64,000 nucleotides of DNA from Alphaproteobacteria bacterium (GTDB lineage Bacteria > Pseudomonadota > Alphaproteobacteria > Micropepsales > Micropepsaceae): NCBI GenBank assembly GCA_947475445.1, contig CANJLC010000008.1:16064-80063 (forward strand), written 5' to 3'. The notes below the pieces were generated by a model. That model ran no database searches and was not told where the DNA came from. It worked only from the letters and a program-made list of their open reading frames with translations. The position numbers and the translations under genes were made by a program. How positions within the stretch are numbered: position 1 is the stretch's first letter; each line of letters starts with the position of its first letter. Positions 57,169 to 63,855 of the stretch are shown in pieces.

Positions 57169-59103
<1,935 letters not shown>

Positions 59104-59113
59104 CGCACAACCT

Positions 59114-59141
59114 CCATGGGCGGGCTTGACCCGCCCATCCA
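59114..59141 (+). repeat. Dispersed palindrome CCATGGGCGGGCTTGACCCGCCCATCCA
   Basis: Near-identical to the reverse complement of 3137-3164; same CTTGA loop as 3084-3106. Confidence 0.75.
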
Positions 59142-59154
59142 GCCTTCTAAACAA

Positions 59155-59184
59155 AAGGGCGGCCCCAAAAAGGCCGCCCTTTTT
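59155..59184 (+). terminator. Rho-independent terminator downstream of ftsH
   Basis: AAGGGCGGCCccaaaaaGGCCGCCCTTTTT. Confidence 0.9.
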
Positions 59185-59244: not shown

Positions 59245-60039
59245 ATGAAAATCCTCGGCATCCTCAACCTCACCACCGACAGTTTTTCGGATGGCGGAAA
59301 ATATCTCGAGCCGATCGAGGCCCTGGCCCATGCCGACAGCCTGCTCGCCGATGGCGCCGACATCATCGACATCGGCGCCGCCGCCTCCAATGTGGATGCC
59401 GCCCCCGTGCCGCCGCAAACCGAAATCGCCCGGCTGGATTCCGTTGTGGCTGCCCTGCACGACATGGGCGCCTCCCTGTCCATCGACAGCTTCTCCACCC
59501 CGGTGCAGCGCTGGGCCCTGGCGCAGGGCGTGGATTACCTCAACGACATTCACGGCTTTGCCGATGAAGCGCTCTACCCCGACCTGGCCGCCTCCACCGC
59601 CACAAGGCTGATCGTGATGCACATGGTCCAGCGCGAGGGCCTGGCCACCCGCGCCGACGTCTCCCCCGATGAAATCTTCGAGCGCATCCTGACCTTTTTC
59701 GAAAAGCGGTTGACGGCCCTGACACAGGCCGGCGTCGCCCCCGAACGCCTGATCCTGGACCCCGGCATGGGCTTTTTCCTCAGCACCAACCCCCAGGCCT
59801 CCCTCACGGTGCTGGGCCGGCTGCCCGAACTGGCCGATGCCTTTGGCCTGCCGCTGCTGGTCTCGGTCTCGCGCAAATCCTTCCTGAAAGCCCTGGCCGG
59901 GCAGGGGGAGGTGGGCGAAGCCAGCCTGGCGGCCGAATTGTTCGCGGTCACCCAGGGGGCCGATTACATCCGCACCCACGCCCCCGGCCCCCTCCGCGAT
60001 GCCCTTAAGATGTTGAAACCTATGGAGGATGGGTGTTAA
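59245..60039 (+). CDS. folP: Dihydropteroate synthase, Sul-like (FolP*) variant
   Basis: [116 protein letters not shown]; directly upstream of glmM. Confidence 0.9.
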
Positions 60040-60088
60040 CCACCCGAAACCAGTTTGTGGTAGAACACTCCGTCTCCAGGATCAGGCC

Positions 60089-61435
60089 ATGACGCGCAAA
60101 TATTTCGGCACCGACGGCATCCGCGGCCGCACCAATGATTCCGTCCTCACGCCCGAAATCGCCATGAAGGCGGGCATGGCGGCGGGCCGCATCTTCACCC
60201 ATGGCGAACATCGCCACCGCGTGGTGATCGGCAAGGATACGCGCCTGTCCGGCTACATGATCGAAAGCGCCCTGGTCTCCGGCTTCACCGCCGTGGGCAT
60301 GGATGTGTTCCAGTTCGGCCCGCTGCCCACCCCCGCCGTCGCCATGCTGACGCGCTCCCTGCGCGCCGACCTTGGCGTGATGATCACCGCCTCGCACAAT
60401 CCTTACACCGACAACGGCATCAAGTTTTTCGGCCCCGACGGCCAGAAGCTCTCCGACGCCGTGGAAATGCAGATCGAGAAGCTGATGGATGGCGGCCTGG
60501 AAACCGGCCTGGTCACCGAAGGCGCCATCGGCCGCGCCAAGCGCATCGACGACAGCCAGGCGCGCTACATCGAATTCGCCAAGCGCACCTTTCCCCGCAA
60601 TTTGCGCCTCGACGGACTTCGCATCGTGATCGACTGCGCCAATGGCGCCGCCTACAAGGTCGCCCCCGAAGTGCTGTGGGAACTGGGCGCCGACATCGTC
60701 ACCCTGGGCGTCTCCCCCAACGGCACCAACATCAATCTCGACTGCGGCTCCACCGCCCCCGAAGCCATGTGCGCCAAGGTGCGCGAAGTGCGCGCCGATT
60801 TCGGCATCGCCCTGGACGGTGACGCCGACCGCGTGGTGATGGCCGACGAACAGGGCCGCATCATTGACGGCGACCAGATCCTGGCCCTGATCGCCAACAG
60901 CTGGTCCCGGAATGACATGCTCAAGGGCGGCGGCGTGGTCGGCACCGTGATGTCCAATGCCGGGCTTGACCGTTACCTTTCCGGCCTGAAGCTGAAGCTG
61001 GCGCGCGCCTCGGTGGGCGACCGCTATGTGCTGGAGGAAATGGCCAAGGGCGGCTTTAACGTGGGCGGCGAACAGTCCGGCCACATCATCCTCTCCGACT
61101 TCGCCACCACCGGCGACGGCCTGATCGCCGCGCTGCAGGTGCTGGCCGTGCTGGCCCAGGACGGCAAGCCGGCCTCGGAAGCCGCCCATCTGTATGAGCC
61201 GCTGCCCCAGGTAATGGAAAATGTCCGCTTCAAGAAAGGCTCGCCGCTGGAAGACGCCCGCGTCCAGTCCTCCATCGACGCCGCCAATGCGCGCCTCGGC
61301 AATACCGGCCGCATCCTGGTGCGCAAGTCCGGCACCGAACCTTTGATCCGCGTCATGGCCGAAGGCGATGACGAAAAGCTGGTGCGCGCCGTGGTGCGCC
61401 AGATCGCGGCCACCATCGAAGAGGTTGCCGCCTAG
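60089..61435 (+). CDS. glmM: Phosphoglucosamine mutase
   Basis: [71 protein letters not shown]. Confidence 0.97.
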
Positions 61436-62310: not shown

Positions 62311-62943
62311 ATGACGAATGGGATGGATACCCAGATAGCGGGCAAAAAAACCATTGCTAACTGGCAGGCGCTCCGCCCGAAGCTGGTCGGCAACCGCGAT
62401 CCTGATTTATGGGCTAAGGTCTACAAGGATTATTTCGTAGCTCGCCTGCGGACGCGTTATATCCGACCCATTGAGCTGCTGCAGAAACACGACACACTTC
62501 AGGGCGAAGGATTCGCTATCTCTTCGATTCAATGCGCTCTCATCGAATTTCTTGCCGCGACCGTAATAGGAAAAAGCTATCGCTTTATTCGGCGTGGTCA
62601 GTCGCTGGGCCAATTCGAATACAATAAGAGCGCCGAGCTATTCAAAGATTTTCTGAGTCAGCAACAACCGTTTAAAACGTACTTCTCGCCCGAAGCTGCG
62701 GAAGATTTCTATAAATCTATTCGCTGCGGCATACTCCACGAAGCCGCCACCAAAAACGGTTGGAGGATTCATGCGGGTCACGCCAGAGGCACGGTGATCG
62801 ACCGCACAAACAAGATACTCTATCGCAATGGTCTCCAAAACTTATTGAAGCACTTCACCAAGGAATACGGCAGGCGACTGCAGATGGAGCGCGCGCTGCA
62901 GGAGGCATTCATCCGCAAATACGACAAGCTGGCCGAAGGCTAG
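62311..62943 (+). CDS. Accessory hypothetical protein with HEPN-like RX4H motif
   Basis: 210-aa ORF; FAISSIQCALIEFLAATVIGKSYRFI ... AAEDFYKSIRCGILHEAATKNGWRIHAG contains R-CGIL-H; lower local GC. Confidence 0.7.
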   Translation: MTNGMDTQIAGKKTIANWQALRPKLVGNRDPDLWAKVYKDYFVARLRTRYIRPIELLQKHDTLQGEGFAISSIQCALIEFLAATVIGKSYRFIRRGQSLGQFEYNKSAELFKDFLSQQQPFKTYFSPEAAEDFYKSIRCGILHEAATKNGWRIHAGHARGTVIDRTNKILYRNGLQNLLKHFTKEYGRRLQMERALQEAFIRKYDKLAEG

Positions 62944-63102
62944 AGAGCACGCTCATCCCGCAATGTGGCTGCTTTCCGCTAACCGACCACAGATTTTGCT
63001 CGAAGGCAGGCTCGAAAATAGCGCTTTTCTGTAGAAGGAACCTCGGTAATATGACCGTAGGTTGTACGGCGGGGACCGCACCTACTTACTAGGGTAAGGA
63101 CT

Positions 63103-63855
63103 ATGGGCAACGCACCAAAGCCAGCCTTAGAGCTCAAGGACGTCGTCATGAAAGACGGCGACGGCCAGTTGCTGACCGCCGCGCAATTGGCCGCTGGCCC
63201 CAGCATTTCGCCATTGGGACGGCTAAGGCTCTATTCGGACCAGCAGTGGGAAGAGTTCATTCATGAATGGGCTTTCTCATGCCTTAAGTCCCAATACAAG
63301 CAAGTGCAGCGAGCATCGGGTGCCAATGACAAGGGCATCGACATCGCCGGTTTTAGAGGAGCCAAGATGCTCAACGGCGTCTGGGACAATTACCAGTGTA
63401 AGCATTACAACCACCCGCTTATGCCGAGCGATGCCTGGATCGAATTCGGGAAAACCCTCTGGTATTCGTTCAGTGGCGAGTACAGGCCGCCCCGGGCGTA
63501 CTACTTCGTTGCGCCGCAGGAGGTGGGCTCGACCCTCGCTCACTACCTCGCGAATTCCGAGGTGCTCAAAGCGCAGTTGCTTATCAATTGGGACAAGTAC
63601 TGCCGAGATGACATCAGTTCGACGCCCGTACTGATGGAAGGCAAGTTTGCGAAGTTTGTTGATGACTTCGATTTTTCTATCTTCAAGAGTAAGGGCATCT
63701 TAGAAATTCTCGAGCAATTCAAGAAAACGCCTCACTACGTGAAGCGGTTTGGAGGCGGCCTGCCGCCACGACCCAAGCCAGGTGTCCCGCCTGCAGCCGT
63801 AGCGCCGGAAGAAGCCATATATGTATCCGAACTGCTTAAAACTTACGGTAGTTGA
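63103..63855 (+). pseudogene. ABC-3C-type effector / Mrr-like restriction-endonuclease-fold protein, probably 3'-truncated by an IS element
   Basis: RLYSDQQWEEFIHEWAFSCL...GANDKGIDIAGFRGAKMLNGVWDNYQCKHYNHPLMPSDAWIEFGKTLWYSF (D...QxK); its TGA stop coincides with the start of the IS-end-like TGATCTGCCCCC. Confidence 0.65.

Follow-up and report, generated by a model that had tools for sequence, protein, structure and literature searches.

The window, by which we mean the whole 64,000-nucleotide stretch of DNA that was analyzed, carries a gene for a Sul-type dihydropteroate synthase (DHPS), folP*, in a locus with the gene order tilS-ftsH-folP-glmM-thiD (Table 1). An intact gene within an ftsH-folP*-glmM core locus had been predicted originally, and this arrangement was confirmed. 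The scores for GlmM and FtsH both exceed the curated NCBIfam cut-offs, and the order of ftsH and glmM around folP is kept in relatives. The folP* open reading frame was called mechanically from position 59116, and the Sul-homologous protein starts at the ATG listed in Table 1. The gap between ftsH and folP* contains a hairpin followed by a T tail, so that folP* is probably transcribed apart from ftsH; the hairpin itself is a consensus match only. Downstream of thiD, window positions 62311-63855 (+) hold two open reading frames (210 and 250 aa) without a Pfam match.

Table 1. Features of the folP* locus in window coordinates, and rows in which variants of the gate residue were noted.
Feature	Position	Strand	Basis or remark
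ftsH, core neighbour upstream of folP*	57169..59103	+	NCBIfam TIGR01241, 876 bits
Terminator-like hairpin, 12 pairs and T tail, ftsH/folP* gap	59153..59183	+	consensus match alone
folP* (Sul-type dihydropteroate synthase, 264 aa)	59245..60039	+	ATG 59245, stop 60037-60039; sequence, profile, fold, tree
Sul-type loop 2 codons (14 protein letters, residues 42-55)	59368..59409	+	replaces DxGGESTRPG loop of ordinary FolP
Helix alpha6 signature codons, DPGMGFFL, residues 172-179	59758..59781	+	alignment to Sul1; PMC10328974
glmM, phosphoglucosamine mutase, intact, 448 aa	60089..61435 (start approximate)	+	NCBIfam TIGR01455, 611 bits
Gate-variant rows noted	L071:5001-5783; alignment rows L009, L010, L018, L021, L025, L027-L030; L131		

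The genome that contains the window, a 2.17-Mb draft that is 98% complete, has two Pterin_bind genes. One is folP* and the other encodes the methionine synthase MetH, so that a check for a second canonical folP, suggested along with the original prediction, found none in this draft. HPPK, the enzyme preceding DHPS in the pathway, is encoded in the same genome. Since the Sul-type protein is the sole DHPS of a genome in which HPPK is present, it very probably serves as the essential DHPS rather than as an accessory resistance gene. Among the relatives identified in the named genome collection were Rhizomicrobium electricum DSM 21034 (L071) and a Rhizomicrobium MAG (L070); according to NCBI, Rhizomicrobium belongs to the Micropepsaceae, Micropepsales. 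The FolP of R. electricum nests among those of the window's genus in our tree of 97 proteins, and the neighbouring proteins of the window show 82% (FtsH) and 77% (GlmM) identity to those of R. electricum, compared with 72% and 67% for a Parvibaculaceae locus (L209). On this gene similarity, we assign the window to the Micropepsaceae.

We compared the window enzyme with solved structures, curated profiles, and an alignment of Sul-type and ordinary sequences. Against proteins of solved structure, it scored 273, 267, and 261 bits with Sul2, Sul1, and Sul3, respectively, and 142 bits with the best ordinary DHPS, while the phmmer E-value was 1.6e-80 for Sul2 versus 1.9e-40 for the top ordinary DHPS. 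Judged by such sequence scores, the resemblance to Sul proteins is far beyond chance. Generic DHPS profiles were passed (TIGR01496, 232 bits, cut-off 162.6; PF00809, 201, cut-off 25.5), and the NCBIfam Sul2 model scored higher than the generic one, at 292 bits. The Sul-specific NCBIfam cut-offs were missed (Sul2, 292 of 575 bits; Sul1, 280 of 600; Sul3, 262 of 475), and identity was about 54-55% to Sul1 and Sul2, 50% to Sul3, and 35% to E. coli FolP. In a maximum-likelihood tree of the 97 proteins, with the Leptospira folP* side represented by Sul3 and L115, the Sul-type sequences including Sul1-3 and the window enzyme formed one branch (support 100/100) against 26 ordinary FolP. The DHPS phylogeny proposed as a check thus put the protein in the Sul clade and outside ordinary FolP. 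The first 15 PDB matches of an AlphaFold2 model of the enzyme (mean pLDDT 86) were chains of Sul1, Sul2, and Sul3.

The original prediction had rested on the absence of the canonical FolP pterin-site string and the presence of Sul-like strings; the translation contains all of the peptides that it quoted, and its Sul1 segments agree with the solved Sul1 sequence (PDB 7s2i). In our alignment, the position of E. coli E60 is Ala in 157/157 Sul-type rows and Glu in 26/26 canonical rows, and that of T62 is Ser in the Sul-type rows and Thr in 25/26 canonical rows. Helix alpha6 reads DPGMGFFL, two residues longer than DPGFGFGK, an insertion relative to 24 of the 26 canonical rows, and residues Met175, Phe177, and Leu179 correspond to Met176, Phe178, and Leu180 of Sul1. 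The catalytic residues (N22, D56, D96, N115, D185, K221, R255, and H257 in E. coli numbering) are kept. At position 50 the window enzyme has Val where Pro is near-universal in relatives (Val in 5/157 rows). Taken by its sequence and its predicted fold, the gene is a Sul-clade DHPS and not an ordinary FolP.

Reading catalysis and resistance across from relatives, we consider it highly probable that the window encodes a Micropepsaceae-like housekeeping DHPS of the chromosomal Sul-type (folP*) branch, one that most likely excludes sulfonamides and that is a sister of the mobile sul lineages rather than their source. The enzyme would join 6-hydroxymethyl-7,8-dihydropterin pyrophosphate to p-aminobenzoate for folate synthesis. 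Its remodelled, longer helix alpha6 (Met-Gly-Phe-Phe-Leu) would set a Phe at the site of the sulfonyl group, beside which the smaller carboxylate of p-aminobenzoate would still be accepted. For Sul1-3, it has been reported that the alpha6 Phe (178, 179, and 177, respectively) clashes with the sulfonamide group and tolerates p-aminobenzoate, that a Phe to Gly change makes the enzymes sensitive again to each of the 12 sulfonamides tested, and that the Leu neighbouring this gate Phe also contributes to resistance (PMC10328974). Because Met175, Phe177, and Leu179 stand at these key positions, sulfonamide resistance is the likely phenotype of the window enzyme. In E. coli, folP* of Parvibaculum lavamentivorans gave a sulfamethoxazole MIC of >512 mg/L and folP* of Leptospira one of 512 mg/L (PMC6335563). 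By analogy with these tested folP* enzymes and with Sul1-3, the window enzyme is probably naturally resistant to sulfonamides, although its identity to tested enzymes is only about 50-57%.

The gate residue varies among relatives. Of 123 chromosomal Sul-type sequence clusters, 100 have Phe there, 10 have Gln, 7 Met, and 6 Leu. Residues other than Phe are confined to the window's own clade of 64 members (41 with Phe; 23 with Gln, Met, or Leu), and the gate is Phe in all of the other 59 clusters, including Parvibaculaceae, and in the mobile Sul proteins. When the gate column was left out of the tree, parsimony required at least six changes between Phe and non-Phe; Gln is limited to one lineage, and Met and Leu arose more than once. 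The cultured R. electricum has Met at the gate. These changes in the window's part of the tree speak for an enzyme that is Sul-type by descent yet sulfonamide-sensitive or weakly resistant, in which other residues (e.g., Val50) or expression offset the gate Phe. We regard this as unlikely, since at the three alpha6 positions important in Sul1-3 (PMC10328974) the window enzyme has retained Phe, Met, and Leu, and since both of the distant folP* enzymes tested were resistant (PMC6335563).

Sul-type DHPS occurred in 25 of 385 alphaproteobacterial genomes sampled evenly across the class, from nine family codes (f1, f9, f18, f39, f54, f121, f123, f126, and f142), and each of the 25 had a single DHPS match. 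The scores in this sample fell into two groups without overlap, at least 344 bits versus at most 213 bits. Complete genomes of other Sul-type families likewise encode one DHPS each. A Sul-type match was found in 37/37 searched genomes of the window's genus and in 27/27 near-complete genomes of the Parvibaculum order. A sample of 398 genomes from the phylum added just two further cases, which were acquired sul2 (100%) and acquired sul1 (99.6%). Work from 2019 found chromosomal Sul motifs only in the folP of Rhodobiaceae and Leptospiraceae (PMC6335563), and the nine-family distribution extends these limits.

In an RpoB tree, the Sul-type families lie near each other, and a single clade of all but one genome, G375, was not rejected (p-AU 0.12). 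G375 falls clearly among f39 genomes with ordinary folP. At its locus (L151:1480-2556), as at L108, the Sul-type folP is inverted between ftsH and glmM, and in G375 it is accompanied by an open reading frame for a 140-aa secreted-type protein. Since other genomes of its family code have ordinary folP, this arrangement suggests that a transferred gene entered the same locus the other way round, and G375 probably received its Sul-type folP by transfer.

The repeated gate changes suggest that sulfonamide exclusion is probably not the trait kept by selection. We give about equal weight for and against the broader proposal that Sul-type DHPS is the normal, largely vertical folate enzyme of an alphaproteobacterial block (nine sampled families), with drift at the gate among Phe, Gln, Met, and Leu in the window's clade and with exclusion as a by-product rather than a selected trait. 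If this is true, natural enzymes such as that of R. electricum, with Met, could separate folate function from drug exclusion. They sample the same position that has been probed by mutagenesis and make up a ready set with which to test which feature of alpha6 excludes sulfonamides.

That chromosomal folP* beside glmM is linked to the mobile sul genes has been known since a 2019 paper, in which the best chromosomal identity for the sul2 gene was 63% (PMC6335563). A transfer of folP* from Leptospira to Rhodobiaceae has also been published. In the 97-protein tree, Sul2 nests inside the Parvibaculaceae as sister to the FolP of L190 (G806 contig 22), with 91.4% protein identity and support of 100/99, and a Parvibaculum MAG (L096/L182) comes next at 82%. 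The window lies in a separate Micropepsaceae clade (support 97/86 in the 97-protein tree). The plasmid sul2-glmM unit (L181:2088-3242), which includes the 5' 243 bp of glmM, aligns without gaps over 1155 bp to the Parvibaculaceae locus of the same contig (L209:8753-9907; G806:C22) at 84.7% DNA identity. Upstream, the match extends 11 bases beyond the sul2 ATG, and at its other end it stops within glmM; five records share these ends. At L209, a full-length glmM is present among chromosomal neighbours. With this locus, the origin of sul2 can be traced beyond the family level to a single group of Parvibaculum relatives, and both breakpoints of the mobilised sul2-glmM piece become visible.

It is very unlikely that the window lineage was itself the direct ancestor or donor of sul1 or sul2. 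Its enzyme does lie in the Sul clade, and its intact folP*-glmM arrangement resembles the sul2-glmM remnant. However, Sul2 is only 55% identical to the window enzyme, against the far closer protein and DNA matches of L190 and L209, and at the DNA cut-off used the window matches the plasmid unit in the glmM part alone (73.8% over 237 bp). Sul1 is 55% identical to the window enzyme and reaches no more than 56% with the chromosomal relatives found; like Sul3 (50%), it shows no greater similarity to the window enzyme than to the remaining Sul-type enzymes. As donor of sul2, the window is ruled out both by the DNA comparison and by the position of Sul2 within the Parvibaculaceae. The original prediction had called the lineage ancestral or sister to the mobile sul genes; the second term is right, and the first, in the sense of a donor, is wrong.

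Sul genes also appeared on IMG/VR contigs filed as viral. Two of these (L115:2995-3783 and L117) encode a Sul3-like DHPS, 81% identical to Sul3, with an open reading frame resembling lincosamide nucleotidyltransferases downstream, and are perhaps a new mobile Sul3-type variant. Others carry sul1 (L116) or sul2 with a glmM fragment (L118-L121) and are probably plasmid-type resistance regions within a viral collection.

For the window enzyme, an ordinary FolP that came to resemble Sul in a few motifs through convergence is also very unlikely. Local convergence does happen, as seen from two DHPS of the ordinary branch (f131) with a similarly lengthened alpha6, but the full-length tree puts the window enzyme in the Sul branch with full support (100/100), a placement with which its loop 2, its alpha6, and its overall similarity are consistent. 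The two f131 sequences (L168 and L177) have a GGESTAP loop and an alpha6 of DPGW(S/G)(A/R)F(L/V), independently lengthened to Sul length, a possible convergence. There is a negligible chance that a mobile element recently brought the gene into the window genome as a resistance gene: the best database matches by name are mobile sul genes, but locus context and composition reject this, with a conserved core locus, similar GC3 (0.84 for folP* and 0.87 for glmM, with GC alike by codon position), no other DHPS, and orthologues in all of the 37 genomes searched in the genus.

A chromosomal folP* beside glmM that is related to mobile sul genes and, in the members tested, confers resistance is already known, and the housekeeping DHPS of the window is a new member of this group in a new family. 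In the literature we searched, whose coverage is incomplete, we found no publication on a Sul-type DHPS in Micropepsaceae or Rhizomicrobium and no source of sul2 closer than that of the 2019 paper (PMC6335563); what appears to be new, within this incomplete search, is the distribution, the variability of the gate, and the closer source of sul2. Few resistance genes are as widespread as the sul genes, and a Sul-type enzyme as the only DHPS in a wide environmental set supports the view that resistance to a synthetic drug existed beforehand as a housekeeping variant.

Among known systems, the folP* of Rhodobiaceae/Parvibaculaceae (P. lavamentivorans) and Leptospiraceae described by Sanchez-Osuna et al. 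in 2019 are, like that of the window, chromosomal and have the Sul motif with a two-residue insertion; those of Rhodobiaceae lie beside glmM and often ftsH, as in the window, and the members tested conferred sulfamethoxazole resistance in E. coli (PMC6335563). The window gene differs in its family (Micropepsaceae by gene similarity) and in belonging to a clade with a variable gate residue. Sul2 (PDB 7s2j, 7s2k) is the best match of the window enzyme both in sequence (54-55%) and, for the predicted model, in fold (TM 0.95); it has the same alpha6 signature, and on plasmids a glmM fragment lies downstream of its gene. The window enzyme, in contrast, is chromosomal, the sole DHPS, and next to an intact glmM, while Sul2 descends from a relative in the Parvibaculaceae. 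Sul1 (PDB 7s2i) is just as similar in identity (54-55%) and has the same Met-Gly-Phe-Phe-Leu in alpha6 and a similar loop 2, but it is mobile, integron-borne, and on a long tree branch, and no close chromosomal relative of it was present among the chromosomal Sul-type sequences found (at most 56%). Sul3 (PDB 7s2l, 8scd) has the same signature at 50% identity but belongs to a low-GC, Leptospira-type branch (PMC6335563). Canonical FolP (E. coli FolP, TIGR01496) shares with the window enzyme the TIM barrel, the catalytic residues, and, as predicted from sequence, the reaction, but it is 35% identical, differs in loop 2 and alpha6, and lies outside the Sul branch.
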